Below are positions 41,856 through 64,000 of a DNA stretch of 64,000 nucleotides, piece by piece. The stretch is from positions 62,001 to 126,000 of the forward strand of contig NZ_VOLC01000005.1 in assembly GCF_009797935.1 (NCBI RefSeq), in the 5' to 3' direction. The notes under the pieces were generated by a model. The model was not told the origin of the DNA. It saw only the letters and a program-made list of their open reading frames with translations, and did not search any database. A program made the translations under genes and the position numbers. The first letter of the stretch is position 1; each line of letters opens with the position of its first letter. This DNA is from Lunatibacter salilacus. Lineage in GTDB: Bacteria > Bacteroidota > Bacteroidia > Cytophagales > Cyclobacteriaceae.

Positions 41856-41932
41856 GAAATATATGTTTTAGTTAAGTGTATTTGGAAAGCCATTCTAGCC
41901 AGACTCATGTCAAAAACTCACATTTTAAAATC

Positions 41933-43279: not shown

Positions 43280-43355
43280 ATAACTAAGGTGTATTTGGAT
43301 AAAGAAAACACGTTGAAATCAATACCCTTCCTCGAACAGTTCGATAGAAGCAATA

Positions 43356-44699
43356 TCACGCCTTTTTTGCCATCGGCTTAAGTGATGTCAAATCACCAAT
43401 TTTCACAATCTTGCCTGTTTCGATACTTTGTCTTGCCGCTATGCCTATTAAAGCCGACATGGCACCGTCCCGGGATCCTGCGGATTGTTTAAACCGATCC
43501 GGACTGTCGGGAAATCGGAATATTTTATCCTTAAGCCGGGGATCAGACCCTCCATGTCCTCCCGATTGGGGGATAACTTGAATGGTTTTTACATTGCCGA
43601 AAAGATTCGTGATAGTGATTTCCTGGTAAGCAGGGACCCCGGTGGGCATGGAGGATTTAATCCAAGCATCCAGTCTTCCCTTGGTCCCATTGATGGCTAC
43701 CCGGAAACCCTCATAGGGTGAAAAAGCTGTAAGCGAGTAACTCACAGGAACTCCATTGGCATACCGGTATTGCACCGCCATCGTATCATAGATATCGACT
43801 TCCTTCCGGAATACGCATCCATCCCTCAGATAGCCGTCATGTTTTTCATGATCCACATACAGATTCATTGCTCCCCTGTCTTTGGTAATATCCCAATAGA
43901 AATTGCAGGACGACTTATGTGGGCAGGGTCTACAATGGGAATGATTGATGGGACTGTTCTTCTGCCCATAGAAATCCAAGGACCCGTAAGCAAAGACTTC
44001 CTCCGGTTCAGAATCCATCCAATAGCTGAGTGTATCAAAATGATGTGTTGCCTTATGGACCAGCAGGGTACCTCCAAACTCCTTCTCTCCGTGCCATCTT
44101 CTGAAATAGCTTGCTCCATGGCTGGTGTCCAGGTACCAGTTCAGATCCACAGAGGTGATATCACCAATTTCATCATTGCGAAGCAGCTCCCAAATTTCCT
44201 CAACATAGGGAGTGTACCGCATGTTAAAGGTGACGATCACTTTGTTGCCGGTCCGCTTCTCGGCGTCAAATATCGCTTCGCATTTCTCCGCATCTGTGGT
44301 TATGGGCTTTTCGGAGATCACCCTAAGGCCAGCTTCCAGCCCTTTAATAATATACTCGTGGTGGGTAGAGTCTGTAGTGGTAACAATCAGGGTATCCGGC
44401 TTGGTTTCTTTGATCATCTTATCAAAATCCGTGAAAACGGGACAAGATACTTTCATCTGATTTTTGGCATAGGCTACCCTTCCCGGATTGATGTCACAAA
44501 GTCCAACAAATTCCAAAATATCATTGTACGCCTCCTGAACCGAGGTTCCCCACATACCTATGCCTCTCCCCCCGGTACCCACCATGGCCACCCTTTGCTT
44601 TGCTTTTTTGAAACCATATCCTACTAGCGGGGAAAGGAGACTCCCTGCTGCCAACAGTCCTGTGTTTTGAATAAACTTCCTTCGATGTAACGTATCCAT
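43356..44699 (-). CDS. Tat-signal Gfo/Idh/MocA oxidoreductase
   Basis: A 447-residue exported NAD(P)-dependent oxidoreductase. Signal: HRRKFIQNTGLLAAG. The Rossmann motif is VGTGGRGIGMWG near 39-50 and the family's EKPITTDAEKCEAIF near 131 supplies the catalytic EKP lysine. A Cys cluster HCRPCPHKSSC (CX2CX5C) occurs in the substrate domain, as in several members of this family. The substrate would be a sugar or sugar derivative oxidised at a ring hydroxyl. It follows the large esterase gene by 16 bases, and an M19-like gene follows. Confidence 0.87.
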   Translation of the reverse strand: MDTLHRRKFIQNTGLLAAGSLLSPLVGYGFKKAKQRVAMVGTGGRGIGMWGTSVQEAYNDILEFVGLCDINPGRVAYAKNQMKVSCPVFTDFDKMIKETKPDTLIVTTTDSTHHEYIIKGLEAGLRVISEKPITTDAEKCEAIFDAEKRTGNKVIVTFNMRYTPYVEEIWELLRNDEIGDITSVDLNWYLDTSHGASYFRRWHGEKEFGGTLLVHKATHHFDTLSYWMDSEPEEVFAYGSLDFYGQKNSPINHSHCRPCPHKSSCNFYWDITKDRGAMNLYVDHEKHDGYLRDGCVFRKEVDIYDTMAVQYRYANGVPVSYSLTAFSPYEGFRVAINGTKGRLDAWIKSSMPTGVPAYQEITITNLFGNVKTIQVIPQSGGHGGSDPRLKDKIFRFPDSPDRFKQSAGSRDGAMSALIGIAARQSIETGKIVKIGDLTSLKPMAKKA

Positions 44700-44715
44700 A
44701 TGCTTCGGTTTTATT

Positions 44716-46809
44716 TTAGTTGGAATTACTCCCAGTTTGTTGGAAATAGCTATTTCCGGGTTTATTTACTATCTTTTTTACTTTTTCGAATTCAGCTTTT
44801 ACTGCATTTAGTCCGTTGGTGGAAACGGGCACACCCGACATGGAAACCGGATCAATAAAGGTCACATCCCGTGTAGACAGTCCGGCTGCAAGGGAAACAT
44901 CTCCCCAATTTAAAATACCAGGCAGGTGAATTCCCATGCTGAAATAATCAATTTGCTCCCTGTTGTCAAACAGATAACTGACAGGCACGTTTCTTAAGGT
45001 GAGTTTTTGAAGGACATCTTCCTCAAGTGCGCTTAAAAACAGGGCGGCTAAGCCAGCCTCCTTGTTCCCTTCAAATTTCAACGAAGTTGGGTTGTAAGCC
45101 TGCTGGATATACCGGGACACCAGTTCCAGCTCCCTTACCCATTCACCGAGCAGGGTTTTACCCAGCCACAGTTGGGCTCGGGAGAGGGTATGAAACTGAG
45201 ACAAACTTGTGCCTGCGGCGTCCACTTTTGATGCGGCTTCTCCCGTTCCTGATAATTCCACAACAACAATGCCTTCTCCCCTGTCCTTTAATTCCTCCAA
45301 ATGATTTAGCGGAATTTCATTTTTCCCATTCGCATAAGCGAACAGGGTATAGCCCAAATTAGGATTTTTCGGAGCAACATGCAATATCGGAATAAGCATT
45401 CCATCCGATGTTTGAATTGCGCTACGTTCCCATCCATCTTTTCGGGAAAAGTTAAAGGTATTAGTGATCTCAAGTGACGTATCTATACCCAAAACCGTCC
45501 TCAGATCCGATTTCAACTGTTCAGGGTTAAGCGATTGTTTTTTCAAAAACTCCTCCTTTAATTTTTGTCCTTGATTTCTAGTGTAGGTATCCGTGCTGAT
45601 CACCAAAGGACTTCTTTCTCCAATTGGGAAAACCAATAAATCTTCTAACGGCAACAATTCAAATGGCTTTTCAGGCCGAGATTCTCCAGTACCTACGCCT
45701 TTGAGATGCAAGTCAAACCAGCCCAGCATGGCTTCTCGGTCTTCTTTCCAATAACCGTGGGTAAGGTCAAACACTTCATAGGCCACCTTTTCCTCCACGC
45801 CGTGAAGTTTGAAAACAGGCTTGACATTGTAGAAGGTCCGTCGCATTTCCGCTGGGAAAAATGTGGGATTGCTGTCCTGGGCATGGTTGCACATTTTCAG
45901 CGCCCTAGGCGCATATAGGGCCAGTACGCCTGCTGATTCCGTAAAGCTCAGCCCACCTGGAAGTAGTTCGCAAACACAGTTTGATCCCATTACAGCTGAT
46001 TCGAATGTACCTACACTGACTATGGGCATGGTGGCCTTGACCCGCTCATCCAATGCGGCAAACCACATGGTCTGATTTCCTCCCCCGCTTGCTCCTGTTG
46101 CACCGATATTTTCTGAATCCACATAGGGTAATGACACGAGTAAATCCACGGCACGCATATTATCCGCCACCTGAACGCCTAACAGGGATTCCCCGATATT
46201 CATCAGAGATGCCCCCAAATTGGCTCCGTGATATTCAAAATCCCCGTGGATTGTCGTTCTTTCTCCAGCTCCAAATGCGTCTATCACCAAGCTGACATAG
46301 CCATTTTTCGCCATCGAATGCCCCAACGATTGTACACTCTCTGCAATTTTACCTTCACTCCAATGGCCGTGCATGCTTACTACCGCCGGAAACGGTCCCT
46401 GTCCTTCCGGAATATACAGGTTTGCCGTGGCATAAACACCCGGTAGGGTCTGGAAATAAATGTTCTTTACCGTATATCCATCCATAGTCTTGGAACCCGT
46501 TTCCTTCATATCCAACGGTAAATTGGAATACGTTTTCAACCCGCTGTGGAGAATGATTTTATTCCTGATTTCTTCTCTTTTTTCACTCCACTCCTCCAAG
46601 TTGTCGGGAAGGAGATGCGTGGCAAACTTTATCATTGCCTGATTTTTCAAGGAGGTACCTAGCAGATCTGATTGTTGGCCTGCCAAGACATTTGGGAGGG
46701 AGTCCAGTGAATGATGGGTGACAAAAGGTATATTTACACTATGAATATTAGCCTGTGCCATGGGCAAGACCAATAAAAAGCAGAATTTCAATAATAAAAT
46801 ATTTTTCAT
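44716..46809 (-). CDS. Large secreted esterase (acetylxylan-esterase-like)
   Basis: A 697-residue exported alpha/beta-hydrolase. Signal MKNILLLKFCFLLVLPMAQA. The first half holds an esterase core with the nucleophile in GATGASGGGNQTM near 240-250 and a His in DLTHGYW near 348. The second half (from about 420) looks like a second, degenerate hydrolase domain: it has FAYANGKNEIPLN but no GxSxG. Such proteins remove acetyl or other ester groups from glycans. It sits 30 bases after a GH109-like gene and 16 before a Gfo/Idh gene. Confidence 0.85.
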   Translation of the reverse strand: MKNILLLKFCFLLVLPMAQANIHSVNIPFVTHHSLDSLPNVLAGQQSDLLGTSLKNQAMIKFATHLLPDNLEEWSEKREEIRNKIILHSGLKTYSNLPLDMKETGSKTMDGYTVKNIYFQTLPGVYATANLYIPEGQGPFPAVVSMHGHWSEGKIAESVQSLGHSMAKNGYVSLVIDAFGAGERTTIHGDFEYHGANLGASLMNIGESLLGVQVADNMRAVDLLVSLPYVDSENIGATGASGGGNQTMWFAALDERVKATMPIVSVGTFESAVMGSNCVCELLPGGLSFTESAGVLALYAPRALKMCNHAQDSNPTFFPAEMRRTFYNVKPVFKLHGVEEKVAYEVFDLTHGYWKEDREAMLGWFDLHLKGVGTGESRPEKPFELLPLEDLLVFPIGERSPLVISTDTYTRNQGQKLKEEFLKKQSLNPEQLKSDLRTVLGIDTSLEITNTFNFSRKDGWERSAIQTSDGMLIPILHVAPKNPNLGYTLFAYANGKNEIPLNHLEELKDRGEGIVVVELSGTGEAASKVDAAGTSLSQFHTLSRAQLWLGKTLLGEWVRELELVSRYIQQAYNPTSLKFEGNKEAGLAALFLSALEEDVLQKLTLRNVPVSYLFDNREQIDYFSMGIHLPGILNWGDVSLAAGLSTRDVTFIDPVSMSGVPVSTNGLNAVKAEFEKVKKIVNKPGNSYFQQTGSNSN

Positions 46810-46839
46810 AGTTCTATGAATTGGTTTTGTTTGTTCCTA

Positions 46840-48276
46840 TTATAACCTTACTTCTGTATTGCCTCCATGGGCTAAAGTGACATCCACCGGCTCGTTTTTC
46901 TCCCATGCTCCCCCTGTGAAATCGGGTACGTCGATTGAATTCGAACGGTTGGCAACCGACCACTCGCTAAGAGGGAAAATAGAACTCCAAAGGGCTGCAT
47001 CATAAACATCCTGGTCCAAAGGAAGACCGTTTCGCAGACAATCTATCAGTCGCCAGTCCATCAGAAAATCCATTCCTCCATGTCCTCCCACTTTTTTTGC
47101 CAGTTCCCCTATCCTGCGAACTATTTCGGGCTGGTATTTTTCTTCCAAATCCTTCATTTCCTCTTCTGAAAACCAAGCTTCATGCCCGGTAGAGACCCTT
47201 CCGGGTAGGGGATACTTCATGGCCGCTCCTTTCGTGCCGCTAAGCAGGTGAATCCGGGAATATACCCTGGGAGACGACACATCGTGTTGCAGCATGATGG
47301 TTCGCCCTTTACTAGTTTTTATGGTGGTTACATTCATGTTGCCCCTGTAGGGCAGGTTAACAAACTGTTCATAAAAACTATCCTCCCGTGCAAGCGATTT
47401 GACTCCGTCTCCAAGCATAAAATCATTGCTGGAAACAGACACTAGGAATTCCATTTTATCCCCTCTGTTGATATTCATGGCTTGGCAGATTGGGCCAAGT
47501 CCATGTGTGGGATAAAGATTGCCGTTTCTGCTGGCATTGTGTTTGAAACGCCACATGTTCCATTTTTCCTTATTGAAAATACCCGGAATAAAATCATGTA
47601 TATAGGCACCTTCCCCGTGGATGATCTCCCCAAAGAACCCTTGTCTGGCCATATTTAGTGTCATCAACTCAAAAAAATCATAACAAGTATTCTCCAGCAT
47701 CATACAATGCTGTCTTGTCCTTTCGGAAGTTTCTACCAAGTCCCAACATTCTTCTATGGTGATTGCCGCAGGAACTTCCACCGCGGCATGTTTACCATTT
47801 TCCATGGCATAAAGGGCCATTGGCGTATGAAGCTCCCATGGCGTAGCTATATATACCAAATCTATATCCTCTCTTTCGCATAGTTTCTTCCATTCCTCGG
47901 GATGTCCAGAATAAATCACCGGATCATGGGGGGTATCTTTAATTTTTTCCTTTGCTTTCAGTGCCATTTCCGGCCGTAAATCACATAAGGCCTTAATTTC
48001 CACACCTGCAATTTTACTCATTCGTACCACTGCGGCCGGTCCTCTGTTCCCCAATCCAATGAATCCTATCCTTACTTTTTCCAACTTAGGAGCCGCAAAA
48101 CCAGACATATTAAATTGCTGACGGTGTTTTTTCCCGGCAAATTTTTGGGTGGCATCCAATTGCTCTTTTGAAACTCTTTCTGAAGCTAGTGATGCCACGG
48201 GCAACAATCCAGATCCTGCCAAGCCAAATCCGGTCAAGCCTGATATTCGGAGAAATTTTCTACGGTTATTTTTCAT
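46840..48276 (-). CDS. Tat-signal GH109-like oxidoreductase/glycosidase
   Basis: A 478-residue Gfo/Idh/MocA protein of the GH109 type, a family in which NAD-dependent oxidation and elimination cleave alpha-N-acetylgalactosaminides. Tat signal NRRKFLRISGLTGFGLAG. NAD motif GFIGLGNRGP (71-80). Family marks follow: EVPAAITIEECWDLVETSER, LNMARQGFFGEIIHGEGAYI and THGLGPICQAM with the substrate-side His. Specificity is not assured by family membership. It is the first enzyme gene after SusC/SusD, across a hairpin-bearing 103-base gap, and a paralogue lies at 55018. Confidence 0.9.
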   Translation of the reverse strand: MKNNRRKFLRISGLTGFGLAGSGLLPVASLASERVSKEQLDATQKFAGKKHRQQFNMSGFAAPKLEKVRIGFIGLGNRGPAAVVRMSKIAGVEIKALCDLRPEMALKAKEKIKDTPHDPVIYSGHPEEWKKLCEREDIDLVYIATPWELHTPMALYAMENGKHAAVEVPAAITIEECWDLVETSERTRQHCMMLENTCYDFFELMTLNMARQGFFGEIIHGEGAYIHDFIPGIFNKEKWNMWRFKHNASRNGNLYPTHGLGPICQAMNINRGDKMEFLVSVSSNDFMLGDGVKSLAREDSFYEQFVNLPYRGNMNVTTIKTSKGRTIMLQHDVSSPRVYSRIHLLSGTKGAAMKYPLPGRVSTGHEAWFSEEEMKDLEEKYQPEIVRRIGELAKKVGGHGGMDFLMDWRLIDCLRNGLPLDQDVYDAALWSSIFPLSEWSVANRSNSIDVPDFTGGAWEKNEPVDVTLAHGGNTEVRL

Positions 48277-48379: not shown

Positions 48380-50071
48380 CTATCGATCTGCACCGTAACC
48401 CGGATTCTGTTCCAACATGCCGTTTTTGTTAATTTCTGTTTGCGGGATTGGCAGCAGGTAATTGGCCGGGTTATAGTTTCCTGTTTTGAAAAACGCAACC
48501 TCATATTGCTTCGTACCATCTGGTAATTTTCTTATGATCATTCTCGTCCTATCCTTATCGGCCTCTTCTTGAAGAATTTCCCATCTACGCACATCGAACC
48601 ACCTATGTTCTTCAAAAACCAACTCAATTCTCCGCTCATTTATGATTCTTTTGAAAAGGTCTTCCCCACTTTCTGTGACATTGGGCATGTTAACACTGGG
48701 CCTATTTCTTACTAAATTTAGGTATTCCCGTGTAATATCCTCATTTCCGAGAAAATAGTTTGCTTCTGCGTAATTCAAAAGAATTTCAGCATATCGAACA
48801 AAGGTCCAGGGTGTCTGGGACATATTTTGTCCGCTTGGATTCACGATACGCTCATTGGCAAATTTCAACTGATAATACCCCGTCTGGGTAGCATTCCAAG
48901 CGGATACAGGGCCTTCGTTAGAATCCAAACCGCCCGGGTAAAAGGTTTCCACTTCTCTTCCCTGAAATAGTGCCCCATCATGCAATATAGAGGCATAAAA
49001 TCTAGGATCTCGGTTTACATAGGGATTTTGCGGATTATATGTTGGATCATCGGCAGGCTTTACACCATTCATTGTCTCATAATCATCAACCAAATTTTGC
49101 AGGGGATGTACTTGGCCGAAACCATTATAGCCATTCGGATATAAACTTAATTCAACATAGACTGCTTCCGGACTGACGAATTGATTATAGGGCCTTTGCC
49201 AGATCATTTCAGAATTATAGATATTTTCTTCCAAAAACATCGTCTTGTAATCATCAAAGAGTGAATACCGTCCCATATCAATGATAGCCTTCGCCGCATC
49301 GGCAGCAGCCTGCCATTTTTGGGCATCTCCGCCTTGATTGTTGCGAGGACTAGCCAAATACAGTAGTGCCCTAGATTTTATGGCCATAGCTGCACCTTTT
49401 GTTATTCTGCCCTGATTAGCATTGTTATAGGTTTCAGGAAGCAAAGCTATGGCTTCGTCCAATTCAGCGATTACAAAGTCCATCACTTCTTGGAACGTGT
49501 TTCGTGTCATCCTGAAATCATCTTCCAATGAAAATGTATTCGTGAATAAAGGGACACCACCAAATAAACTGGCCAGTTTGAAATAGGAGAAGGCCCGGAT
49601 AGTTTTCATTTCGCCTATCATTCTATTCTTGGTTGCCTCCGGGATTTCTACCGCACGTTGCCTGTCAATATTTTCAAAGAAAATGTTGGCTCGGTTGATC
49701 GGCTGCCAAAAATTAATGTTTCTATTGTTTGCCCCAGTCCAGTAATCCACCTCTCGGAGGTCATCTGGATTGAGATCCCCTTCCCATACGCTCCAAGCCC
49801 ACGCGTTACTCCGCGCATTGTTTTCATCCGTAACCACAGAAAGCCCATAGAGGCTATACCTAATGCCACTTGGAATGGTCCGATAAGCGTTACCAATAAA
49901 TGCTTCAATCAGGGCCTGATCAGCCCATACAGCCTCGTCGGTGAATCGGTCAGCAGGAACGATGTCCAATACATCTTCATTACAGGACACCTGTAATGAT
50001 GCGAATATAAAAAGAGCGGATATAATACCCAGTCTTTTTGTTTTCTTAAAGTATTTATATGTGCTTTTCAT
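48380..50071 (-). CDS. SusD/RagB family nutrient-binding lipoprotein
   Basis: A 563-residue SusD-type lipoprotein. Signal with lipobox VSC (LFIFASLQVSC, Cys30), then EDVLDIVPADRFTDEAVW, which is the usual opening of SusD proteins. TPR-type helices (IRAFSYFKLASLFGGVPLF; KSRALLYLASPRNNQGG) follow, with the C-terminal block RRIELVFEEHRWFDVRRWE and the last LLPIPQTEINKN segment. It binds the glycan fragment and closes over SusC. It starts 30 bases after the SusC gene and belongs to the amino-sugar locus. Confidence 0.94.
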   Translation of the reverse strand: MKSTYKYFKKTKRLGIISALFIFASLQVSCNEDVLDIVPADRFTDEAVWADQALIEAFIGNAYRTIPSGIRYSLYGLSVVTDENNARSNAWAWSVWEGDLNPDDLREVDYWTGANNRNINFWQPINRANIFFENIDRQRAVEIPEATKNRMIGEMKTIRAFSYFKLASLFGGVPLFTNTFSLEDDFRMTRNTFQEVMDFVIAELDEAIALLPETYNNANQGRITKGAAMAIKSRALLYLASPRNNQGGDAQKWQAAADAAKAIIDMGRYSLFDDYKTMFLEENIYNSEMIWQRPYNQFVSPEAVYVELSLYPNGYNGFGQVHPLQNLVDDYETMNGVKPADDPTYNPQNPYVNRDPRFYASILHDGALFQGREVETFYPGGLDSNEGPVSAWNATQTGYYQLKFANERIVNPSGQNMSQTPWTFVRYAEILLNYAEANYFLGNEDITREYLNLVRNRPSVNMPNVTESGEDLFKRIINERRIELVFEEHRWFDVRRWEILQEEADKDRTRMIIRKLPDGTKQYEVAFFKTGNYNPANYLLPIPQTEINKNGMLEQNPGYGADR

Positions 50072-50101: not shown

Positions 50102-53100
50102 TTAGAAAGAAAGGTCAATTCCCAAATTAAAAATCCTACTTTGGGGGTAAAAACTCCCTCTCTCATTGTCTCCCTCTGGGTCAAACCACTTGATCTCTGA
50201 GATGGTAAAGATATTATTACCATTCAGATAGACCCTCGCCGAGGATAATTTCAATTTGTTAATCAACGGTTGAGGAATCGCATAACCGAGCTGTAGGGTT
50301 TTCAGTCTTACAAAAGATGCATTCTGGAGCCAGAAGGTACTTTGAAGACCACTTGGTTGTGTTCGGGTATCCAAATCAGGCAAGATGGGGTACTTAGAGT
50401 TCATACTACCCGGGGTGTACCTGTTTTCGATCAGCTCGGCCAATCCGTTTACTGCAATTCTGGCATTTTGGTGATAGTACTGCCATGCGCGACCCTGTCC
50501 GGCAAAATTCACAAATAAGGATAAAGGACCGTAATTTAGGGTACTGTTTAGGCCAAAGGTAATTTGGGGAATGTTGGATCTATCCAACCTTACCATATCC
50601 TGGGAGCTGATGATGCCATCCCCATTGGTATCTTTATACTGAAGGTGGCCTACCCGCGTTCCTGGAAAGATTGGGTTTGAGGTAACTTCTTCCTGTGTCC
50701 TGAAAATCCCCACAGCTTCATAATACAACCCCGCACCCAGAATTCTTCCCTCTGCTTTTTGATAATCAGGTACATCCTGAGCTTCACTGAGGTCGATAAC
50801 CTTATTCCTATTAAAAGCTATGTTCCCGCCAACGGAGTATGAGAAGCCCCCTGGAGAAGAACCACGGCTACGGTGGTTCAATGCGATCTCTATCCCTTTG
50901 TTTTCTACTATGCCAATATTTTCATCCGGCAAAAGCAACCCCGTATAAAAAGGCACTTCCAAATCCCTTTTCGTTAGAATATTTTCCCTTGTTTGTTTGA
51001 ATAAATCGACGCTAAACCCGAGTCCTCCATTCCAAAACATACCGTCCAATCCAATATTTGTAATCGTTGCTACTTCCCAGGTAACATTTGGATTGGGAGT
51101 TACGCCAGGTACAATCCCTAATTGAGACGTAGTGGGCGACCCGAAGTGATACCCAAGAAGTCCCAGGCTATAGGCAGGCATAAATTGAAAGGGATCGATT
51201 CTGTCATTTCCCATTCTCCCTATGGAACCCCTCAATTTCAAATCATTAACCCCTGGCGTATTCTTCATCATCTCCTCAGACAATACCCAAGCAGCAGAAA
51301 CTCCGGGGAAAAATCCAAACCGTTGTCCTTTTGGAAACACATAAGAACCGTCATACCTGGCATTGAAATCAATCATATATTTCTCCTGGTAATTGTAACT
51401 TACCCTACCTAAAAGGCTTTGACGTGAAGACTCTGAGGAAACACCGGTATTTTGCTGGGAGGCTGGGTCCCCGGCGAAAAGTTCTCCCAAGACAGGAGAG
51501 AGGTAGTTTCTCCTATAGGCCTGATAGTACCCATTGTCACCCTTGGTCTGCTCAGCACCGATAAACGTACTGATATAATGATCATCCATCTGATTCTCAT
51601 ATTTCAGTCTGAGATTTATAAAGGTACTGGTGATGCTTCTGGTGGACTGCGTTAATTCAGGAGCAATAATTCTTCCCCCCCGAAGCGGTATGTATTCGTC
51701 GGTGACTCTGTTATGATTATAGACAGTCCATGGAGTTCTCCATCTTTTATCCAATATATCCTCGTTACTGTATACAACAAAGCCGTCTAATCCCAGCCCC
51801 TTTACCCATGGAGCTTTAATGTCAAAACCCATTTGGGTAATTGCTCTTTTGGTTTTGGTATTATGGTTGCCGGAGGCAGCTGTTGTCATTACCGCGGGAT
51901 TAAGCCCCTGCTCAATCCCTGCTGAGGGTAATCCATTCTGATAATAAACTGGCATCATGGGAATGGCATTCAACCAACCCCAGGGATTCTCAGTTCCTGG
52001 CTGGGTCCGGTCATCCAATCCCAAATTCAAATCCAGATTTACTTTAATGTATTCATTGATGTCAGCGTCAATATTTGACCTGATTGTGTACCCCTTAAAT
52101 TCATGGATGCCTTTTTCAAAAATACTATTTTGATTAGAGTATGATCCAGATAGTGAATACCTCACCGATTCTGTTCCTCCTCTGAGGCTCAGGTTATGCA
52201 TGCTTTGCAGAGAATAATCCCTTAAAACTTCTTTGTACCAATTCGTATTCGGATAGTTGGGATCCGTTCCATCTCTAAACAGCTGGATTTCCTGTTGCGA
52301 ATACCTCGGATCTTGCCCATCCCTAACCATCATCTCATTCACATATTCTGCAAAAAGCGGAGATCCCGCCAACTCAGGTAACCTAGTAGGCTGACTAATT
52401 CCCTGATTAAAGGTATAATTAATCATAGGCTTACCTACACTACCCCTTTTCGTGGTTATCAGGATTACTCCATTTGCGGCTCTTGCTCCATAAATTGCCG
52501 CAGAAGCATCCTTTAGAATTGTGAGGGATTCAATGTCATTCGGATTGATTCTTTGCCATCCGGGTGGGTTTTGAACTCCATCAACCACTACAAATGGGCT
52601 GTTGTCGCCTGTAGTATTGCTTCCTCTTATCAGGAGGGCTGAATTATCCGCGCCCGGTTCCCCGGAACGATTCAACGCAACTAGGCCTGGTAGGAGACCC
52701 GACAAGGAATTCGTCAGATTAACGGACGGATTGCTAATAATCTGTTCGTTTTCTACACTAGTTATCGAACCGGTCAATGTAGCTTTCTTTTGTGTTCCGT
52801 AGCCAATCACAACGAATTCCTCCAATTCCTCCGTATCTTCCTCGAGCGTAATGGAGATAAGGTTCTGGTTACCTATCGTTATTTCCTTGGTTAACATACC
52901 GACAAAAGAGACGACCAATGTCTCCGCGCCAGGTCCCACAGTAAGACTATAATTGCCATCAATATCGGTGACCGTCCCATTGGAAGTGCCTTTTACCAAA
53001 ACGGTAGCCCCAGGAACAGATTGTCCAGCGGTAGTCGAGACTATTCCTGAAATCACCCTGCCGCCTTGGGCGAGCAGCTGTTCAGAATTCATCACTCCTG

Positions 53101-53143
53101 AAAACATCAGGAAGATCATTAAAACGGTAGTAAATTTTTTCAT
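50102..53143 (-). CDS. SusC/RagA TonB-dependent outer-membrane transporter
   Basis: A 1013-residue SusC-type transporter. Signal MKKFTTVLMIFLMFSGVMN, cleavage near LLAQGG. The carboxypeptidase-like domain (ISGIVSTTAGQSVPGATVLV) is followed by the plug marks EFVVIGYGTQKKATLTGSI, LIRGSNTTGDNSPFVVVDG and LKDASAAIYGARAANGV, then a barrel ending in RIFNLGIDLSF. It is the first gene downstream of a 270-base region with two operator-like palindromes, so it probably leads the SusC-to-NagB transcript. Confidence 0.95.
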   Translation of the reverse strand: MKKFTTVLMIFLMFSGVMNSEQLLAQGGRVISGIVSTTAGQSVPGATVLVKGTSNGTVTDIDGNYSLTVGPGAETLVVSFVGMLTKEITIGNQNLISITLEEDTEELEEFVVIGYGTQKKATLTGSITSVENEQIISNPSVNLTNSLSGLLPGLVALNRSGEPGADNSALLIRGSNTTGDNSPFVVVDGVQNPPGWQRINPNDIESLTILKDASAAIYGARAANGVILITTKRGSVGKPMINYTFNQGISQPTRLPELAGSPLFAEYVNEMMVRDGQDPRYSQQEIQLFRDGTDPNYPNTNWYKEVLRDYSLQSMHNLSLRGGTESVRYSLSGSYSNQNSIFEKGIHEFKGYTIRSNIDADINEYIKVNLDLNLGLDDRTQPGTENPWGWLNAIPMMPVYYQNGLPSAGIEQGLNPAVMTTAASGNHNTKTKRAITQMGFDIKAPWVKGLGLDGFVVYSNEDILDKRWRTPWTVYNHNRVTDEYIPLRGGRIIAPELTQSTRSITSTFINLRLKYENQMDDHYISTFIGAEQTKGDNGYYQAYRRNYLSPVLGELFAGDPASQQNTGVSSESSRQSLLGRVSYNYQEKYMIDFNARYDGSYVFPKGQRFGFFPGVSAAWVLSEEMMKNTPGVNDLKLRGSIGRMGNDRIDPFQFMPAYSLGLLGYHFGSPTTSQLGIVPGVTPNPNVTWEVATITNIGLDGMFWNGGLGFSVDLFKQTRENILTKRDLEVPFYTGLLLPDENIGIVENKGIEIALNHRSRGSSPGGFSYSVGGNIAFNRNKVIDLSEAQDVPDYQKAEGRILGAGLYYEAVGIFRTQEEVTSNPIFPGTRVGHLQYKDTNGDGIISSQDMVRLDRSNIPQITFGLNSTLNYGPLSLFVNFAGQGRAWQYYHQNARIAVNGLAELIENRYTPGSMNSKYPILPDLDTRTQPSGLQSTFWLQNASFVRLKTLQLGYAIPQPLINKLKLSSARVYLNGNNIFTISEIKWFDPEGDNERGSFYPQSRIFNLGIDLSF

Positions 53144-55017: not shown

Positions 55018-56436
55018 TTATATTAGATTGGTATTACCACCTTCTTGCAGGTTGATATCCATTCCCCTCTTGTTAGATTTCCAAGAACCCGAAGTAAAAT
55101 CCGGAACTTTTACCGTATTCCCCATCTGCGCAACCGACTGTTCACTTAAAGGTGTTACCACACTCCATAGTGCCGCATCATACACGTCCATTTCTAGGGG
55201 AAGTCCATTTCTAAGACAATCAATCAAGCGCCAATCACTAGCTGTGACTCTTTCATAGGACCGATTTCCCTTAGTACCTCCAGCCCGTGATACTTTTTCA
55301 CGAAATGTCTTGGTAATTTGGGGAGTGAACTTTTCGACAAGGGCTTTAAACTCTTCCTCTTGGGTCCATTCTTCACTTGTGGCAATTCTTGGAGGATCAG
55401 CATGATAAATCCCTCTAGATCCACTAATTAACTGGAATCTTGAACCAGGCCTGGGTGAACTGATATCGTGTTGCAGCATGATGGTTCTTCCTTTGTTTGT
55501 CCTAATCACAGTAGTGTTCATGTTCCCCCTGAACTTTAGCCCATCAAAGCTTTCAAAGTAAGGATCACTTTCGGCAAGCTCCTTCATTTTTGGACCCATT
55601 GTAAAATCATTGCTGGAAATAGAAACCAAATAATCCATTTTATCTCCATAATTAAGGTCCATCATTTGGGCCACTGGTCCCAAACCATGCTGCGGGTACA
55701 TGTTTCCATTTCGTCCTACATTTTCCTTCAAACGCCATGGCCGGTATCCAAACCAATTATCCTCATCCCTCTCCCACCTTCCCGGTCCATTTACCCTATC
55801 ATGAATGTAATTGCCTTCTCCGTGGATCAACTCCCCAAAAAAACCCTGCCTTACCATATTCAATACAATGGCGGACATTCCATCATGACACGAGCCACAT
55901 CCCATGTAACAATGTTTCTTGGTCCTTTCGGAAGTTTCCACCACCTGCCAACATTCCTCCAAGGTGACTCCGACAGGAAGTTCAGTATATACATGTTTGT
56001 CACGCTCCATGGCATATACAGCAATGGGAGCATGGTATTTCCAAGGGGTGGCCACGTAGATCAAATCAATATCAGAACGGTCACAAAGCTCTTTCCATGC
56101 GTCCTCACCATCAGTGTAAATGGCTGGTGAATGGCCAAATCCATCAATGGATTGCATGGCCTTATGAACATTACCGGGTACGATATCGCAAAGTGCCACG
56201 ATGTCCACATTCTCTATACTGGCCAGCCGAAGAAGTGTGCCTGATCCGCGTTCGCCAATGCCAACTAACCCCACTTTCACCCGATCCAGCTTGGGTGCAC
56301 GATAACCATGCATGTTAAATGATTGCAGGTGATTTCGCTCCGTGGATTTCTCGGCCATTGCCCGATCTGGACCCACAATTACCCCCGCTCCCGCAAGGCC
56401 TGCAAGTTTGATAAAATCTCTTCGGTTCTTTTTCAT
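55018..56436 (-). CDS. Second Tat-signal GH109-like protein
   Basis: A 472-residue paralogue of the GH109-like protein at 46840. Tat signal NRRDFIKLAGLAGAGVIVG. The NAD motif is GLVGIGERGSG near 57-67. The marks TELPVGVTLEECWQVVETSE, LNMVRQGFFGELIHGEGNYI and PQHGLGPVAQMMDL are all present. The usual EKP lysine motif is TELPV here, as in the GH109 subgroup. Its presence with a paralogue suggests two linkages or two steps of one glycan. It precedes the haem-motif lipoprotein by 10 bases, so they are probably co-translated. Confidence 0.9.
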   Translation of the reverse strand: MKKNRRDFIKLAGLAGAGVIVGPDRAMAEKSTERNHLQSFNMHGYRAPKLDRVKVGLVGIGERGSGTLLRLASIENVDIVALCDIVPGNVHKAMQSIDGFGHSPAIYTDGEDAWKELCDRSDIDLIYVATPWKYHAPIAVYAMERDKHVYTELPVGVTLEECWQVVETSERTKKHCYMGCGSCHDGMSAIVLNMVRQGFFGELIHGEGNYIHDRVNGPGRWERDEDNWFGYRPWRLKENVGRNGNMYPQHGLGPVAQMMDLNYGDKMDYLVSISSNDFTMGPKMKELAESDPYFESFDGLKFRGNMNTTVIRTNKGRTIMLQHDISSPRPGSRFQLISGSRGIYHADPPRIATSEEWTQEEEFKALVEKFTPQITKTFREKVSRAGGTKGNRSYERVTASDWRLIDCLRNGLPLEMDVYDAALWSVVTPLSEQSVAQMGNTVKVPDFTSGSWKSNKRGMDINLQEGGNTNLI

Positions 56437-56493: not shown

Positions 56494-57726
56494 CTAAGTC
56501 CAATTCAAAACCTTTAATGCATTTTCCCTATACAACTTTAGCAAAACGTCGTCGGGAAGCTCTAGCCCATAGTACCTCCACCAGGATCTACCGGGCATAT
56601 GTTCGTCGGCACTTTCCAGTAGCCGCCACCATCCCTGGTACATGCCTTTGTCCATTCCCATATCGGTCCCAAACAGTACGCGGCCGCTGTATTGCGAAAG
56701 GAATTTGGCCGCGGCTCGGGGTTGTCTTCCCACTTCATAATCCCGCGCTGAAATGTCGAGATATAAATTGGGGTGGGTGTCCAGCGTCTCTCCCAGTCTT
56801 TGCAAATCATTCCCAAGGTTTGCCAGGTGACAGGCGATAAAGGTAGTTTCAGGTTGTTTTGTCAACAGTTTAGGTAGGTAATTTAGCAACTCATCATAAG
56901 GAACCCCATCACTTCCATACTGGTTAAACTGCTGAAAAATCGGGGTTCTTTCCTGAAATACATCCGGCGGCTGCCAGGAGGAAGGATGATCAGCCAAATG
57001 GAGATTAACGGGAATATTTAACTCCGCACATTTGCTCCAAAAAGGATCTAAACGGACATCGTCAAAATGCATACGTTCATTCGGGGCCAGTCGGGGATCG
57101 CCCGTAATGCCATATCCTTTATCGGTTACTTCGCCCACCCCTCGGGCTCCTAAACTATAGCAACGTTCCAATTCCTTTACAGCCCTTTCCGGAAAATCCG
57201 GCTTGTCTATATCGTTCCTTTCAACGCCACAGAAAAGTTGGAACCTGTCAGGATACGAGTTGAGATAGAAATCAACCATCATATCGAACTGAGATCCGGT
57301 GGCCACTGTGAGGATTACCGACTTTTCGATTCCTACCTCATCCATGGTTTTTACCCATTCCTCCAGGGCTTCCTTTGGTCGTTTCCCCTTTTCTTGGGCG
57401 GGGTAATGATGCAGGTGAACATCAATAACGGGAAATTTGGCTTTTGGAATAAACGTTTGAGGGGCAATGACAGAGGACCGGGGAGCGTAATCCTTCACGA
57501 GCACATGATCCATGGGTCCAGGTCCCACCGGAACGCCGGGCCCACTCCATTCCCCGTACTTCACTTTCAGCCATTCCGGATCGGAAGTCCATGCTTTTTC
57601 GACTGCGGCCGATTCTGTCCCTGTTTCCTCAGTAGTACATCCTGGAAGAGACCCCATTCCAGCGGCCCCCAGCCCCAACAATCCAGCCTCTTTCAAAAAA
57701 CCTCTGCGATTTTTTTTCATCTCCAT
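56494..57726 (-). CDS. Tat lipoprotein of the amidohydrolase-2 family
   Basis: A 410-residue TIM-barrel hydrolase of the amidohydrolase-related (PF04909) type. The N-terminus has both a twin-arginine motif (NRRGFLKEAGLLGLG) and a lipobox (LPGC, Cys29), so it should be a Tat-exported lipoprotein. The first metal motif is VHLHHY, then VNLHLADHPS (His), FIACHLAN (His) and the last LFGTDMG Asp. Related enzymes decarboxylate or hydrolyse cyclic acids or lactones. Here it may open a lactone made by oxidation of a sugar, which is inference. It begins 57 bases before the GH109-like gene. Confidence 0.85.
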   Translation of the reverse strand: MEMKKNRRGFLKEAGLLGLGAAGMGSLPGCTTEETGTESAAVEKAWTSDPEWLKVKYGEWSGPGVPVGPGPMDHVLVKDYAPRSSVIAPQTFIPKAKFPVIDVHLHHYPAQEKGKRPKEALEEWVKTMDEVGIEKSVILTVATGSQFDMMVDFYLNSYPDRFQLFCGVERNDIDKPDFPERAVKELERCYSLGARGVGEVTDKGYGITGDPRLAPNERMHFDDVRLDPFWSKCAELNIPVNLHLADHPSSWQPPDVFQERTPIFQQFNQYGSDGVPYDELLNYLPKLLTKQPETTFIACHLANLGNDLQRLGETLDTHPNLYLDISARDYEVGRQPRAAAKFLSQYSGRVLFGTDMGMDKGMYQGWWRLLESADEHMPGRSWWRYYGLELPDDVLLKLYRENALKVLNWT

Positions 57727-57846: not shown

Positions 57847-59088
57847 TTAGAAAAACTCCGCAACGGCAAAATAAGCCGTCAATAAGCTGAACAGAATCAC
57901 AGCCCCAAGGCCAATATTTTCCTTCAATCCCGCCACGTGGGATTTCATCAGTATCTTGTTGTTGATCAATAGAAATACAGGGATGGCTACGGCAGGAAGA
58001 ATAAATGCCTGAAAGGCCTGCGAAAAAACCATTAACAACGGGGGACGGGTTTCCATAAACTGCATGCCAAAACCAAACATAATACCTATAAAACCCAATA
58101 TCCGGTACATGGGGGATCGGATATCTCTTGGTTGCCCAGTGTAATCACTAATCAGCCAGGGAGCTATTAGGATTATTGGGAAGACCGTAGATATACCCGC
58201 ACCGACAATTCCCAAAATCAGAATAAAGGCAGCAACTCTCCCACCTAATGGTTCAAACAAACTGATCATCTCAACAGTATTGTCCAACTTCATCCCCATC
58301 ACATGAAGCGTCCCGGCGGATACAGCCATAATAATGACGCTTAATACAAACATCAGCGAAGCAGAAACCATGGCATCCTTTTTTTCATTTTTAAGATCTT
58401 GAATCTTCCATCCTTTTTCTACCACCACCGTACTTCTGATGATAAATACAGCTGCAGAACACGTAGTACCAGCAATGGCAGCGATAAGCTGTAGTACGCC
58501 CGGCTCATTGGGTATGGAAGGAGCTAGTCCTCCCACGATAGTAGAAATACTTGGGTTGACCAGAAAAAAAACAACCACAAAGGAACCTACCATTAAGGCC
58601 ACAAAAAACACTAACACTTTTTCGAACACCTTATAACTACCAAACCAAAACAAGGTATAAAGCACCGTGACCAATACGGCTGTAATCCATAGGGTACTGA
58701 ACCCTTCCCCTCCCAGCAGGAGTCTAGACCCTTCCTGTATTAGATCGGCAATAATTCCAAATATGCCCATCAAAGCCATGATTTCGCCTATGATCAGAGC
58801 CACAATGATGTAAATTGCCAGTACAGCTCCGTTTTTTATTTTATGCTTGATATTGAATAAGGCCGTATTCCCGGTTACCAAGGTAGTTTTGCCATAGGCC
58901 ACCATCAGCACATAGGTAAAAATACAGGACAAGGCCAAGGCCCAAGTCAACGTCATACCATATTCGGCTCCTACTTTGGCCATGGTAGTGATGCTGCCTG
59001 TGCCGATATTATAGCCAATTAAAAAAAGGCCAGGACCAATTAAGCTTACGGCGAGTACAAACTTTTTTAAAATTGTATTTTCTTTCAT
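57847..59088 (-). CDS. Nramp-like transporter without the usual metal motifs
   Basis: A 413-residue, about 11-helix membrane protein of the Nramp superfamily. The first helix has GPGLFLIGYNIGTGSITT (18-35). Canonical Nramps have DPGN at the 29-32 position; here it is GTGS. In helix 6 the canonical MPHN is replaced by a TTCS segment near 208-211. Both core metal-binding motifs are therefore lost, so a divalent-metal role is doubtful. Nramp-related families with other ions are known (magnesium, aluminium). It is embedded in the sugar locus, so transport of another solute is conceivable. Confidence 0.85.
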   Translation of the reverse strand: MKENTILKKFVLAVSLIGPGLFLIGYNIGTGSITTMAKVGAEYGMTLTWALALSCIFTYVLMVAYGKTTLVTGNTALFNIKHKIKNGAVLAIYIIVALIIGEIMALMGIFGIIADLIQEGSRLLLGGEGFSTLWITAVLVTVLYTLFWFGSYKVFEKVLVFFVALMVGSFVVVFFLVNPSISTIVGGLAPSIPNEPGVLQLIAAIAGTTCSAAVFIIRSTVVVEKGWKIQDLKNEKKDAMVSASLMFVLSVIIMAVSAGTLHVMGMKLDNTVEMISLFEPLGGRVAAFILILGIVGAGISTVFPIILIAPWLISDYTGQPRDIRSPMYRILGFIGIMFGFGMQFMETRPPLLMVFSQAFQAFILPAVAIPVFLLINNKILMKSHVAGLKENIGLGAVILFSLLTAYFAVAEFF

Positions 59089-59157: not shown

Positions 59158-60441
59158 TCAGGTCTTTAACCACTGATCAAACCAGTCAAAAGCTGCTATT
59201 TGCATCTTTTTGTCAAATTGATGCCCTCCCGGGAAAAAACTACATTTATACTTGTCCTTGGCTCCGGCTTTTTCATATACCTCCCCCAAAATCCGGTCTG
59301 CTTCCTTCATTTCATCCAGAGTATATAGACCATCCTCATTGGAATTGATGACCATCGTAGGTAAGGGAACTCTTAACCCCAGGATTTCGGGGAAATCGAG
59401 TTCTTTGGGCAGCACCGGCACGAAAGCCATCCAGGTATGGGTGAAGGATTTATGCAAAACCATGTCTTTCCAACTAGTCATAAACCCCACACAAATCGCA
59501 CATTTGATCCTAGGGTCAAGTCCTCCCATAAAAACTGTACGCATGCCTCCTCCTGATAACCCGCCACAGCCGATCCTGTCCGCATCCACATCTTCCCTAC
59601 TACAAAGGATATCGAGGGCTTTTTGATCCTCAGCAAAAAACACTCCCGGCCAGGTAGTTCCCGCGCTGAAGAGTGATTTTGCCATGGTATCTGCCTGTCC
59701 TTTTGCCCAATTGTTATATGCTCGCGCATTTTCAGGCAGATCAGGCTGTTCATCTGTCAATCCCTGCCTAAGACGCTCGGGAACGTCCATCAATCGAACC
59801 CTGCGACTGGCAAAGGGGAAGGCATCAGGAACAAATACCACGTACCCTCTTTTGGCCACTTCATTGGCCCATGCCAGACCGCCATAATAAAACTTCTGAT
59901 GGTCCACCATCATGGGATGCTGTTCCGATCCAGTTTTGGTAATCTTTCGTTTGCCAAAATATTTCCAGCCTCCATGATCATGAAATGCCAAAATGCCCGG
60001 TAACTTTCCCGTAGCACCTTGGGGCTTTAACAATATACCTTCGGACCGACCTCCGGTAGGCAACTGCCAGCTGATTTCCTCTATATGTAATCCGTCATAA
60101 TTATATTGTTTATCTATGGTAAACGTTGGCACCTCCCCAAGATCGGGAGCAGCTATTCGGTCCTTCAATCGTTCGGTAGCCTGACTTTTCCATTTGGCAA
60201 GGTTTTTCCATTCCTTTCTTCTAAAAGAATGGCTGGGCAGCGACTTCTCCAGCAATCCCGAGGCCCAATTGCCATAGGTACCGATTATCGGTTTATCCTC
60301 ATTTACCAATCCATCAGCTACAAAATTCGCCGCTTTGTCGGAAAATATTTCTTTGGCATATGATTTAATTCCCGGCTTGAAAAAGAAGCCCATTCCCAAC
60401 AAACTTGAAATTTTCAAAAAAAACCTTCTATTATTCCTCAT
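59158..60441 (-). CDS. Tat-signal acetyl-xylan-esterase-like hydrolase
   Basis: A 427-residue exported alpha/beta-hydrolase of the AXE1/dienelactone-hydrolase type. The signal is NNRRFFLKISSLLGMGFFF. The nucleophile is in GCGGLSGGGMRT near 295-306, the Asp in VINSNEDGLYT near 370 and the His in FPGGHQFD near 411. It would remove acetyl or other esters from sugars. It begins downstream of an operator-like site and is the first gene of the run to the haem-motif lipoprotein. Confidence 0.87.
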   Translation of the reverse strand: MRNNRRFFLKISSLLGMGFFFKPGIKSYAKEIFSDKAANFVADGLVNEDKPIIGTYGNWASGLLEKSLPSHSFRRKEWKNLAKWKSQATERLKDRIAAPDLGEVPTFTIDKQYNYDGLHIEEISWQLPTGGRSEGILLKPQGATGKLPGILAFHDHGGWKYFGKRKITKTGSEQHPMMVDHQKFYYGGLAWANEVAKRGYVVFVPDAFPFASRRVRLMDVPERLRQGLTDEQPDLPENARAYNNWAKGQADTMAKSLFSAGTTWPGVFFAEDQKALDILCSREDVDADRIGCGGLSGGGMRTVFMGGLDPRIKCAICVGFMTSWKDMVLHKSFTHTWMAFVPVLPKELDFPEILGLRVPLPTMVINSNEDGLYTLDEMKEADRILGEVYEKAGAKDKYKCSFFPGGHQFDKKMQIAAFDWFDQWLKT

Positions 60442-60642: not shown

Positions 60643-62526
60643 TCAATGTAGTGACGCATTCACTACTATATCCGCTGCATAGACGGTTTTATTGCTTTTT
60701 ATGACCTGCCGAATGGTTATACCGGTAGCGGATTTTTCGAAGATGACCCGGTCCTTTATGCGGAAATTATCTCCATAAATATACCTAGCTGGAATAACAG
60801 ATCCTTTTACCCATGCATCTGAAAGGGATAAAAGATTACTATCAAGGAGGTATTCAACGTTTTGAAGTAAATCCTTAGCCGCCCCTGCAAGCATTCCGTT
60901 GGAACCTTTCATGGACAGTTTTCCGTTCGCCTCCAGCACCACTTTCCCGCCAATATGCGCATCATATTCACCGGGAGGCATGCCAGCAAATGCTGTCGCA
61001 TCACTCACCAAGAAACTCTTGTCGCCCTTTATTTTGAAAGCGACCTTTAGAAACTCATCGGGTACGTGACATCCGTCGGCGATTAGGCTTGCGGACAGGT
61101 TCTCTTCCGCCAGCAGGTCCCAAAGAATGTTCGGATGTCTTTTAAGCATAAGTGGAACAGCATTACCCAAGTGGGTTACCATAGATAAACCAGCTTCTAC
61201 TGATGCCTTGATATCCTCCAGCTTGGCCATACTGTGTCCAATGGCTACTTTTATACCTTTATCAACACAGGCTGCAATAAATTCCAGTGAATTTTCCCGC
61301 TCGGGTGCCAATGTTATCAGTGCAATTCGATTATCGGAAATGGCAATAGCTTCTTCCAAAAATCCGAGTGAGGGATTTTGGATACAGTCCTTGGGATGCG
61401 CCCCTCTTGCCCCGTCCTCGGGAGATATAAATGGGCCTTCTAAATGGACCCCCAATACACAGTCATTTACCAGCGGATACACTTCGCAGGCATCCCGAAT
61501 TACCCCCAATAAATGAAACATTGTGTCCTTAGTGCCTGTAATCAAAGTAGGGCAAAAAAGAGTGACTCCCTTACTTAACAAATATTGGGTTGCCGCCAAG
61601 ACATCTTCTTTGGTAAGCTCCATTGAATTAAAGTCTATCCCGTTGATCCCGTTGATTTGAAGATCTACTAAGCCAGGTGCTAGATAGGTTTTAGTGGGGA
61701 AATCAGCTGGAAGGATAAAATCAACCCCGTATATTTCATCCACACAAATAACCTCATTTATAACAATATCCTTTGATGCACGATCTTTTAAAACCTGGAT
61801 TTCGGGTGAGGACTCATGGTCCACAAATAAATCACAATTATTTAATGTCCTTAAAAAAGAAGCAGGGCAGGCGGTGGAAATCGGGCCAAACAGCGTGTCG
61901 TGAACGGCAGCTTTTTTTGTCTGACCGGGGACCACACAAATTAAATGGGATGCATTTATAATCGTGGGAATGGTCAGGGTTATGGCCTGTTTGGGCACTT
62001 CTTCAAAATTTTCAAAACACCCGTCATTTACCTGCTGCTGTCTGCATATCAGGTCCAGTTCCACTTTTTTGACAGCAGAGATATCAAGGAAATCGGCAAC
62101 AGGTGGGTCATTAAAAGCAATGTGTCCATTTTCACCTATTCCCAGACAAACTAAATCGATAGGGTTTTCTTGTAACAACGCCGAATACCTTGCTATCTCG
62201 GCATCTATTTCCGCCAGTCCATTAATATAGTGAACCGCTTTAAAGGAAACGTGATCAAACAGGTGATGTCTAAGGAAATTGGAAAAAAGAGCTGGGGACG
62301 AATCGGAAAGGCCAATATATTCATCCATATGGAAAGCGGTAATTCGCCTCCAAGGGATTTGGTTACTTTTTCGCAGGTAGGCTAGTGTATCCGATTGGGA
62401 AGGGGCGGCTGCAAAAATAACCCGAAGCCCCTCCTTGGTACGTAATAGCTCTAGCAGTTTTGCTTCTACAGCCCTTCCGGCTGCTGTTCCCATCTCGGAT
62501 CGGTTTTCGTAACGGTGTAATTTCAT
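60643..62526 (-). CDS. NagB-NagA fusion: deaminase plus deacetylase
   Basis: A 627-residue protein fusing two steps of GlcNAc-6-phosphate use. Residues 1-245 are NagB-like: FHMDEYIGLSD (Asp68, Glu69) and GIGENGHIAFNDPP (131-142), with the same Glu-for-Asp variant as the free NagB. Residues 255-627 are NagA-like: GLVDLQINGINGIDF, the metal Glu363 in HLEGPF, His431 in IGHSMAK, His452 in THLGNA, and the catalytic Asp509 in VSDATAFAG. The order deaminase-first is opposite to the order of reactions (deacetylation precedes deamination), but both active sites look complete. There is no membrane segment, so it is cytoplasmic. Confidence 0.9.
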   Translation of the reverse strand: MKLHRYENRSEMGTAAGRAVEAKLLELLRTKEGLRVIFAAAPSQSDTLAYLRKSNQIPWRRITAFHMDEYIGLSDSSPALFSNFLRHHLFDHVSFKAVHYINGLAEIDAEIARYSALLQENPIDLVCLGIGENGHIAFNDPPVADFLDISAVKKVELDLICRQQQVNDGCFENFEEVPKQAITLTIPTIINASHLICVVPGQTKKAAVHDTLFGPISTACPASFLRTLNNCDLFVDHESSPEIQVLKDRASKDIVINEVICVDEIYGVDFILPADFPTKTYLAPGLVDLQINGINGIDFNSMELTKEDVLAATQYLLSKGVTLFCPTLITGTKDTMFHLLGVIRDACEVYPLVNDCVLGVHLEGPFISPEDGARGAHPKDCIQNPSLGFLEEAIAISDNRIALITLAPERENSLEFIAACVDKGIKVAIGHSMAKLEDIKASVEAGLSMVTHLGNAVPLMLKRHPNILWDLLAEENLSASLIADGCHVPDEFLKVAFKIKGDKSFLVSDATAFAGMPPGEYDAHIGGKVVLEANGKLSMKGSNGMLAGAAKDLLQNVEYLLDSNLLSLSDAWVKGSVIPARYIYGDNFRIKDRVIFEKSATGITIRQVIKSNKTVYAADIVVNASLH

Positions 62527-62558
62527 GTGGATGCAATTTATTATTCTTTTTCAATAGC

Positions 62559-62909: not shown

Positions 62910-64000
62910 TTAGACTTTTGGTTCCCAGCCTTTCTGATAAGCTCTTTTCCAAAGTCGTTGAGCTGGTTTGTTATTTAGAATATGACCGTTTTGGGGGTCG
63001 ACATGCAGGGTCTCTCCTGTTCGCTGGGCGATATTTCCCAGCTGACAAAGCAAGGTACTCATATGTCCGCTGACAATATCGGAATTTAAGGGAGTACCCT
63101 GCCGGATACTTGAAAAAAGGTTTTGAATATGCAAACTGTCTAGATTTTGGGCAGGATTAGCCAAATCTCTGGCATCTATTACAGTATCATTCTTCACCTC
63201 TTTTACTAGGTTGTTTTTAAGGTCATAAATGGAATAGGCATTCCCTCCGTCAATTTTGAGTGCTCCAGTCTCTCCATAGAACATCACGCCGACGCTGGCC
63301 CCTTCAATAAGGTGTCCATTACAGCTTCTGCCTTCCCAGGTGATCTTGGAGTTATTATCAAATTCCAAACTGATTGTTTGGGTATCCGGAGTCTCCCAAT
63401 CATCATCATAACGGTACCTTCCCCCTGCAGAAGTCACTCTAGTGGGGTATTCTACTCCAAGCCCCCACCTAGCTATGTCCACCATATGGGTTCCGTTGTT
63501 CAATGCCTCACCAGTACCCCAGTTCCAGAACCAGTGCCAGTTATAATGTACTAAATTATCCCGGAACTCTTCCCGTGGAGCAGGTCCCTGCCACAATTCA
63601 AAATCCAACCAATCCGGAACGGCCGTTTTTTTCCCGACACCTATTGGTCCTCGGTTATTGGTATACCATGTCTTTGCGTAATAAGGCCGGCCAATTGCCC
63701 CACTTTTCAACTCGGCAATTCCAGCTATCACATTTGGCCATGACCTTCTTTGATTTCCCATCTGAAGAACCCGTCTATATTTAGAAGCCGCTTCTATCAG
63801 GAGTTCTCCTTCATTCGGATTATGACTCGCAGGTTTTTCGAGATAAACATCCTTTCCCGCCTGACAAGCCATGATGGCTGCCGGCGCATGCCAATGATCT
63901 GGAGCTGCTACCACCAAAACATCTACGTCCTTATCCTCTAGACTCTTTCTAAAATCAGGAACAGCTTTGGGTGAAAAATCCTGAATTTTACCTACGGATC
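62910..64000 (-). CDS. Gfo/Idh/MocA oxidoreductase, N-terminus outside window
   Basis: A partial NAD(P)-dependent oxidoreductase of at least 360 residues. The frame is open to the last base, so the Rossmann motif and any Tat signal are not visible. Visible marks: DVLVVAAPDHWHAPAAIMAC, the EKP motif in VYLEKPASHNPNEGELL, and the substrate-side HYNWHWFWNWGTGEALNNGT followed by HMVDIARWGL, with the family His. It resembles the secreted Gfo/Idh proteins of the Bacteroidota that act on sugars. A TTG in VLVVAAP is not a real start. A terminator follows. Confidence 0.88.
   Translation of the reverse strand, partial: SVGKIQDFSPKAVPDFRKSLEDKDVDVLVVAAPDHWHAPAAIMACQAGKDVYLEKPASHNPNEGELLIEAASKYRRVLQMGNQRRSWPNVIAGIAELKSGAIGRPYYAKTWYTNNRGPIGVGKKTAVPDWLDFELWQGPAPREEFRDNLVHYNWHWFWNWGTGEALNNGTHMVDIARWGLGVEYPTRVTSAGGRYRYDDDWETPDTQTISLEFDNNSKITWEGRSCNGHLIEGASVGVMFYGETGALKIDGGNAYSIYDLKNNLVKEVKNDTVIDARDLANPAQNLDSLHIQNLFSSIRQGTPLNSDIVSGHMSTLLCQLGNIAQRTGETLHVDPQNGHILNNKPAQRLWKRAYQKGWEPKV

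Follow-up and report, generated by a model that had tools for sequence, protein, structure and literature searches.

Nramp-related proteins have been described as a paraphyletic set outside the canonical Nramps which lacks the DPGN and MPH motifs and the proton path, and in which the groups besides the NRMT-like and G-motif 3 proteins are called uncharacterised, according to the available part of a preprint (Ray, Berry and Gaudet, 2026; PMC12873925). The available text on EleNRMT presents it as a Mg2+ transporter that keeps the helix-1 Asp and is not proton-coupled, with DxxG-TxxA/T given as the NRMT site motif (PMC8806188). Genetic evidence for manganese import is reported, in the accessible portions of the two sources, for MumT of A. 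baumannii (PMC5050338) and YcsG/MntG of B. subtilis (PMC10448178), both of them Nramp-related proteins encoded in metabolic operons. As told in the same portion of the latter source, YcsG was earlier linked to 5-oxoproline use, so its cargo is disputed. In the part of the account of Alteromonas sp. 76-1 at hand, a 'Nramp, metal-ion transporter' appears among the genes of the alginolytic system (PMC6431674).

The window protein and its place among Nramps

The window analysed here is a stretch of 64,000 nucleotides from Lunatibacter salilacus (contig NZ_VOLC01000005.1, positions 62,001 to 126,000). It contains an intact ORF with an ATG start, in which the following elements were located:

57847..59088, minus strand: Nramp-type transporter gene of the GTGS clade, 413 aa (ORF and PF01566 match)
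58993..59004, minus strand: GTGS (residues 29-32) at the helix-1 DPGN position (alignment to solved Nramps)
58783..58785, minus strand: E102 in helix 3; Glu in amino-sugar loci, Gln in uronate loci (context comparison)
58456..58467, minus strand: T208-T-C-S211 in helix 6, with T208 and S211 at the AxxM ligand positions (alignment)
58435..58437, minus strand: R218, the helix-6 arginine, invariant in the clade (74/74 members)

The Pfam Nramp model PF01566 matched the protein with 178.9 bits (E 2e-52, cut-off 29.8), and the match was nearly full length, spanning residues 33-386 of the protein and positions 1-355 of the model. The general Nramp model of NCBI scored 63.8 bits against a cut-off of 50, and the MntH model reached 60.8 bits, below its cut-off of 430.

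In the alignment to solved Nramps, D-P-G-N corresponds to G29-T30-G31-S32, and the helix-1 ligands Asp and Asn are both absent. This bears out the sequence-only reading that helix 1 carries GTGS instead of DPGN, a motif found exactly in all 74 clade members. For helix 6 the same reading had taken MPHN to be TTCS-like. The TTCS sequence at residues 208-211 is real, but this register lies three residues early, since MPHN aligns with S211-A212-A213-V214; the conclusion that MPHN is missing survives the correction. At the position of the canonical A/CxxM motif the protein has T208-x-x-S211, with T208 present in 74/74 clade members. The Arg at 218, aligned to a His of DraNramp which we take to be His237, was found in none of the 46 other Nramp-type proteins that were compared.

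Canonical MntH identity was rejected on the lack of DPGN and MPHN and on the position in another clade. Plain NRMT identity was rejected as well, because the site reads GxxS-TxxS rather than DxxG-TxxA/T, with the Thr in common and the Asp absent. A sequencing error or pseudogene was discarded on the occurrence of GTGS throughout the clade. The AlphaFold2 model, computed from an input of the window protein with L005 and L006, had a mean pLDDT of 35.8.

The compared set consisted of 74 ORFs of the GTGS clade and 46 other Nramp-type ORFs (controls), all taken from retrieved genome stretches. Forty of the controls were chosen by us at non-clade places in a search of 49 genomes carrying a clade member, and the remaining six had been met at loci examined earlier. 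Left out of the counts were L053, which repeats the window stretch; L070, a genuine match missed by the greedy ORF caller; and the fragment G1023:C153 from the search of the family of G130. Trees and dereplicated counts also omit L133, L134, L140, L143 and L144; in dereplication, rows with at least 88% identity to a kept row were removed. The phylogeny against Nramp relatives that had been proposed as a check placed the window protein in a distinct and well-supported clade (SH-aLRT 100 in a quick tree, 100/100 in a careful one), separate from the canonical metal transporters in both trees. EleNRMT fell outside this clade on a very long branch; both trees gave a long-branch warning, and its position is unsure for that reason. 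Absence of the known metal site was upheld by the alignment, but the earlier wording that the site is 'lost' is probably wrong, because Nramp-related proteins are placed outside the canonical Nramps in the available part of PMC12873925; more likely, the site was never present in this lineage.

A query search at 1e-30 found a match in 21 of the 296 genomes of the phylum sample, and the GTGS branch itself in 20/296 once G107, which has a GPGT-type gene only, was set aside. With a 24-row profile at 1e-100, matches were obtained in 13/395 (class), 4/194 (order), 20/244 (class of G187) and 24/149 (family of G130) genomes, these samples overlapping one another. The genome of the window has four PF01566 genes, namely the window gene, a second GTGS gene (L040) whose product is 40% identical to the window protein, a GPGS gene (L051) and an AIGVS gene (L052). 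None of the four has DPGN or MPHN, so any manganese uptake in this organism would need either another family or one of these proteins. The second GTGS gene (L040:9232-10497) has SusC/SusD and two amidohydrolase genes in its vicinity and, by the subclade pattern, Gln at position 102.

Gene neighbourhoods of the window gene and its clade

The transporter gene is part of a same-strand run whose start is at the window end or further out, and which extends down to 41109. The sole break is a plus-strand ORF of 94 aa (62460-62744), which overlaps a larger gene. The run comprises, besides the transporter:

62910..64000, minus strand: GFO/IDH/MocA oxidoreductase, gene of 450 aa continuing past the window end
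60643..62526, minus strand: fusion of NagB-like and NagA-like parts, 627 aa (PF01182; NCBIfam models)
59158..60441, minus strand: alpha/beta-hydrolase (Abhydrolase_7/AXE1 type), 427 aa, directly upstream of the transporter
56494..57726, minus strand: amidohydrolase-2, 410 aa, directly downstream of the transporter
55018..56436, minus strand: GH109-type GFO/IDH oxidoreductase, 472 aa
53415..55007, minus strand: FG-GAP repeat protein, 530 aa, N-terminal CxxCH
50102..53143, minus strand: SusC-type TonB receptor
48380..50071, minus strand: SusD
41109..48276, minus strand: further run genes, in the order GH109-type GFO/IDH, AXE1-like hydrolase, GFO/IDH, M19 peptidase, NagB-like
41109..41855, minus strand: the second NagB-like gene, last of the run

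In the fusion protein, the nagB match spans residues 1-245 and the nagA match residues 251-583; each scored under its NCBIfam cut-off. Two of the four NagB-like genes of the genome are inside this run. A simple hydropathy count assigned at least five membrane helices to the transporter and to no other protein of the run. The CxxCH near the start of the FG-GAP protein is a possible haem-binding site. Just beyond the window end, a further SusD/SusC pair (L053:14279-19195) prolongs the run on the same strand.

The contexts of clade and control genes were compared using a set of alginate and amino-sugar markers (PL6, PL7, PL17, KdgF-like cupin, KDG kinase, KDPG aldolase, NagB, NagA, GH20 and GH84). 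A marker was present within six genes for 44/74 clade members versus 3/46 controls, and within one gene for 28/74 versus 0/46. After dereplication the six-gene counts were 33/59 and 2/39 (Fisher 9e-8), the contexts counted not being independent events. The three marker-positive controls are all GPGS-type genes, and one of them directly adjoins a clade member; at this NagA/NagB locus (L100) GPGS-type and GTGS-type genes lie side by side (L100_8, L100_9). SusC or SusD was found within six genes of 37/74 clade members versus 6/46 controls. No marker gene occurs within six genes of 30/74 clade members, some of which have carbohydrate genes of another kind nearby, for example a mannose-6-phosphate-isomerase-like gene (L106) or GH10 (L104).

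Since the marker list came from the clade's own loci, the immediate neighbours were scanned against all of Pfam. The scan covered 109 neighbours of 56 of the 59 dereplicated clade members (six ORFs were skipped for length or residue limit) and 77 neighbours of all 39 dereplicated controls. Among the leading families next to clade members were Amidohydro_1 (7), glycoside hydrolase 2 (6), KDPG aldolase (6), alginate lyase (5), AP_endonuc_2 (5), short-chain dehydrogenase (4) and Glucosamine_iso (4). Next to the controls LamB/YcsF came first (8); this PxpA-type family adjoins six GPGT-type genes (L113, L114, L116, L117, L118 and L147). Glycoside hydrolase 31 and GFO/IDH were each found twice there, and DtxR-type repressor and FeoA domains matched two neighbours. 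From these comparisons, chance nearness to sugar genes was rejected, and linkage of the clade to sugar catabolism genes was retained.

No metal regulator occurred among the 25 leading Pfam families of the clade neighbours, while a check of ten control neighbours showed that repressors adjoin two of the three canonical Nramp genes (L108, L109). This speaks against the strongest rival explanation, unlikely in our judgement, by which the window protein would be a divalent-cation transporter with a rebuilt site, similar to the Mg2+ transporter EleNRMT, that feeds the metal-dependent enzymes of the locus. The third canonical gene (L110) is located between glycosidase genes; sugar-gene neighbours alone therefore prove nothing, and they inform the question of cargo without deciding it.

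Residue 102, the E. coli member and the likely cargo

The contexts follow the subclades, with 14 alginate-lyase loci, 22 amino-sugar loci and none having both. Residue 102 is Glu in all 22 amino-sugar contexts, including a single one with an additional KDPG aldolase gene, and Gln in 21 of the 22 contexts with uronate genes only. Because the Glu members form two subclades, independent Glu-102 events are few. The E102 of the window protein could serve as a cation ligand, which together with EleNRMT being the nearest solved relative by sequence would suit a rebuilt cation site. Such a site is hard to reconcile with the clade at large, where 45/74 members have Gln, Val or Ile at position 102, the helix-6 Arg is invariant, and the Asp kept in EleNRMT is replaced by Gly in the window protein. 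The suggestion of the sequence-only reading that a different, sugar-like solute is carried fits the context of the clade, the subclade residues and the invariant R218; it is qualified by the genetic manganese evidence reported for the Nramp-related MumT and MntG/YcsG in the portions of the two sources at hand, which counts for the cation transporter.

Relatives of the window protein were found neither in viral contigs nor in phages. On plasmids there were 79 records, of which three were looked at. A GPGT-type gene on a haloarchaeal plasmid adjoins hydantoinase/oxoprolinase genes, and one on a Pseudoalteromonas plasmid is near curli and soxR genes. A plasmid match led to a clade member in E. 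coli:

L151:7028-8257 (NZ_AP018784.2): E. coli clade member

Of 5426 complete E. coli genomes, 546 carry this gene with at least 99% identity, and its product is annotated in NZ_AP018784.2 as 'Nramp family divalent metal transporter'. The protein has GTGS, keeps the Arg, shares 37% identity with the window protein and falls inside the GTGS clade with starred support in the careful tree. It is flanked by genes for an enoyl-CoA hydratase and an FAD-dependent oxidoreductase, and the operon also encodes a CoA transferase and a LacI-type regulator. These CoA-ester partners point to an organic acid as cargo and not to a sugar, by which the likely cargo range of the clade is widened.

By hydropathy count, no polytopic protein besides the Nramp-type one is encoded within six genes in 12 of the 14 alginate-lyase loci, and the same is true of 24 of all 44 marker loci. 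An SSF symporter is encoded as well in five amino-sugar loci, and an MFS transporter in seven uronate-type loci. Such additional importer-type transporters, like the CoA-ester enzymes around the E. coli member, would be compatible with a protein that serves these pathways by export or exchange, for instance by removing a by-product like acetate or a keto acid. This alternative is considered improbable, as most alginate-lyase loci would then have no other polytopic protein nearby as importer and as residue 102 tracks the type of sugar. A transporter-like sensor without transport could likewise account for the second symporter in some loci and for the missing ligands of known transporters. It is very improbable, given that clade members are full-length proteins of a transporter fold family that carry no extra domain and are conserved in E. 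coli as well as across Bacteroidota.

The window protein is, with fair probability, an organic-solute importer for a sugar released by glycan breakdown and not a metal transporter. A sugar-like cargo is probable because the metal residues are absent and the branch is often found among sugar-degradation genes. Weighing against it are the 30/74 members with no marker gene nearby, the marker loci that encode a further polytopic protein, the dependence among the contexts counted, the manganese phenotypes of MumT and MntG, and the setting of the E. coli gene apart from sugar enzymes. The importer would be an inner-membrane protein of the Nramp/LeuT-fold superfamily and part of a clade of its own. 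Where relatives have the divalent-metal site, this clade has small and hydroxyl-bearing residues instead (GTGS in helix 1, TT in helix 6), and the invariant R218 and a subclade-specific polar residue of helix 3 (E102 here) may contribute to the site. Glycine-rich helix-1 loops bind substrate in amino-acid transporters of the superfamily. Helix 8 presumably keeps a Ser/Thr pair at the LeuT sodium-site position; canonical Nramps also have such a pair. Driven by Na+ or H+, the protein would carry into the cytoplasm a monomer set free when glycans are broken down in the periplasm. For the clade as a whole, sugars or sugar acids are the most likely imports. For the window protein, the cargo is probably an N-acetylhexosamine product, and this N-acetylhexosamine or derivative would be handed to the NagB/NagA-like and GFO/IDH enzymes encoded beside the transporter. 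The cargo of the alginate subclade would be an unsaturated uronate or the linear keto form of it.

Extended to the whole branch, the proposal is held somewhat less firmly, as only just the probable one: it would import sugars, sugar acids and other small organic compounds, position 102 would help to read the cargo, and the branch would supply the inner-membrane import step that many alginate and amino-sugar loci of Bacteroidota otherwise lack, with the E. coli member, present in about one tenth of the complete genomes, carrying an organic acid. If an organic cargo is correct, the label 'Nramp family divalent metal transporter' given to the clade proteins in databases would be wrong for a branch occurring in the phylum and E. 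coli genomes counted above, a superfamily known for metals would also move sugars, and a candidate inner-membrane importer would be at hand for marine alginate degradation. As to the YcsG/MntG dispute, branches which each have their own metabolic partner can be explained by an organic cargo no less well than by metal supply.

Comparison with known systems

Ray et al. (2026) probably cover the GTGS clade with their uncharacterised Nramp-related groups, in which case the branch as such is already known; the available part of that preprint (PMC12873925) treats neither gene context nor sugar cargo for these proteins. No paper proposing a sugar cargo for Nramp-related proteins was found in the literature searched, most subscription journals lying outside it. 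With the canonical Nramp/MntH proteins (DraNramp, ScaDMT, BfraNramp) the window protein shares the superfamily and a near full-length alignment, but it lacks DPGN and MPHN and belongs to a different clade. EleNRMT (7qia; E 8e-18 with the single sequence, 2.6e-37 with the clade profile) has the helix-6 Thr in common with it but differs in having an Asp in helix 1 and no Arg in helix 6. The Nramp gene of Alteromonas sp. 76-1, compared by label and not by sequence, belongs to an alginate locus, as some clade genes do, and is labelled as a metal-ion transporter in the portion of PMC6431674 at hand. YcsG/MntG and MumT resemble the window gene in being part of metabolic operons, and the cargo reported for them in the accessible portions of their sources is manganese.
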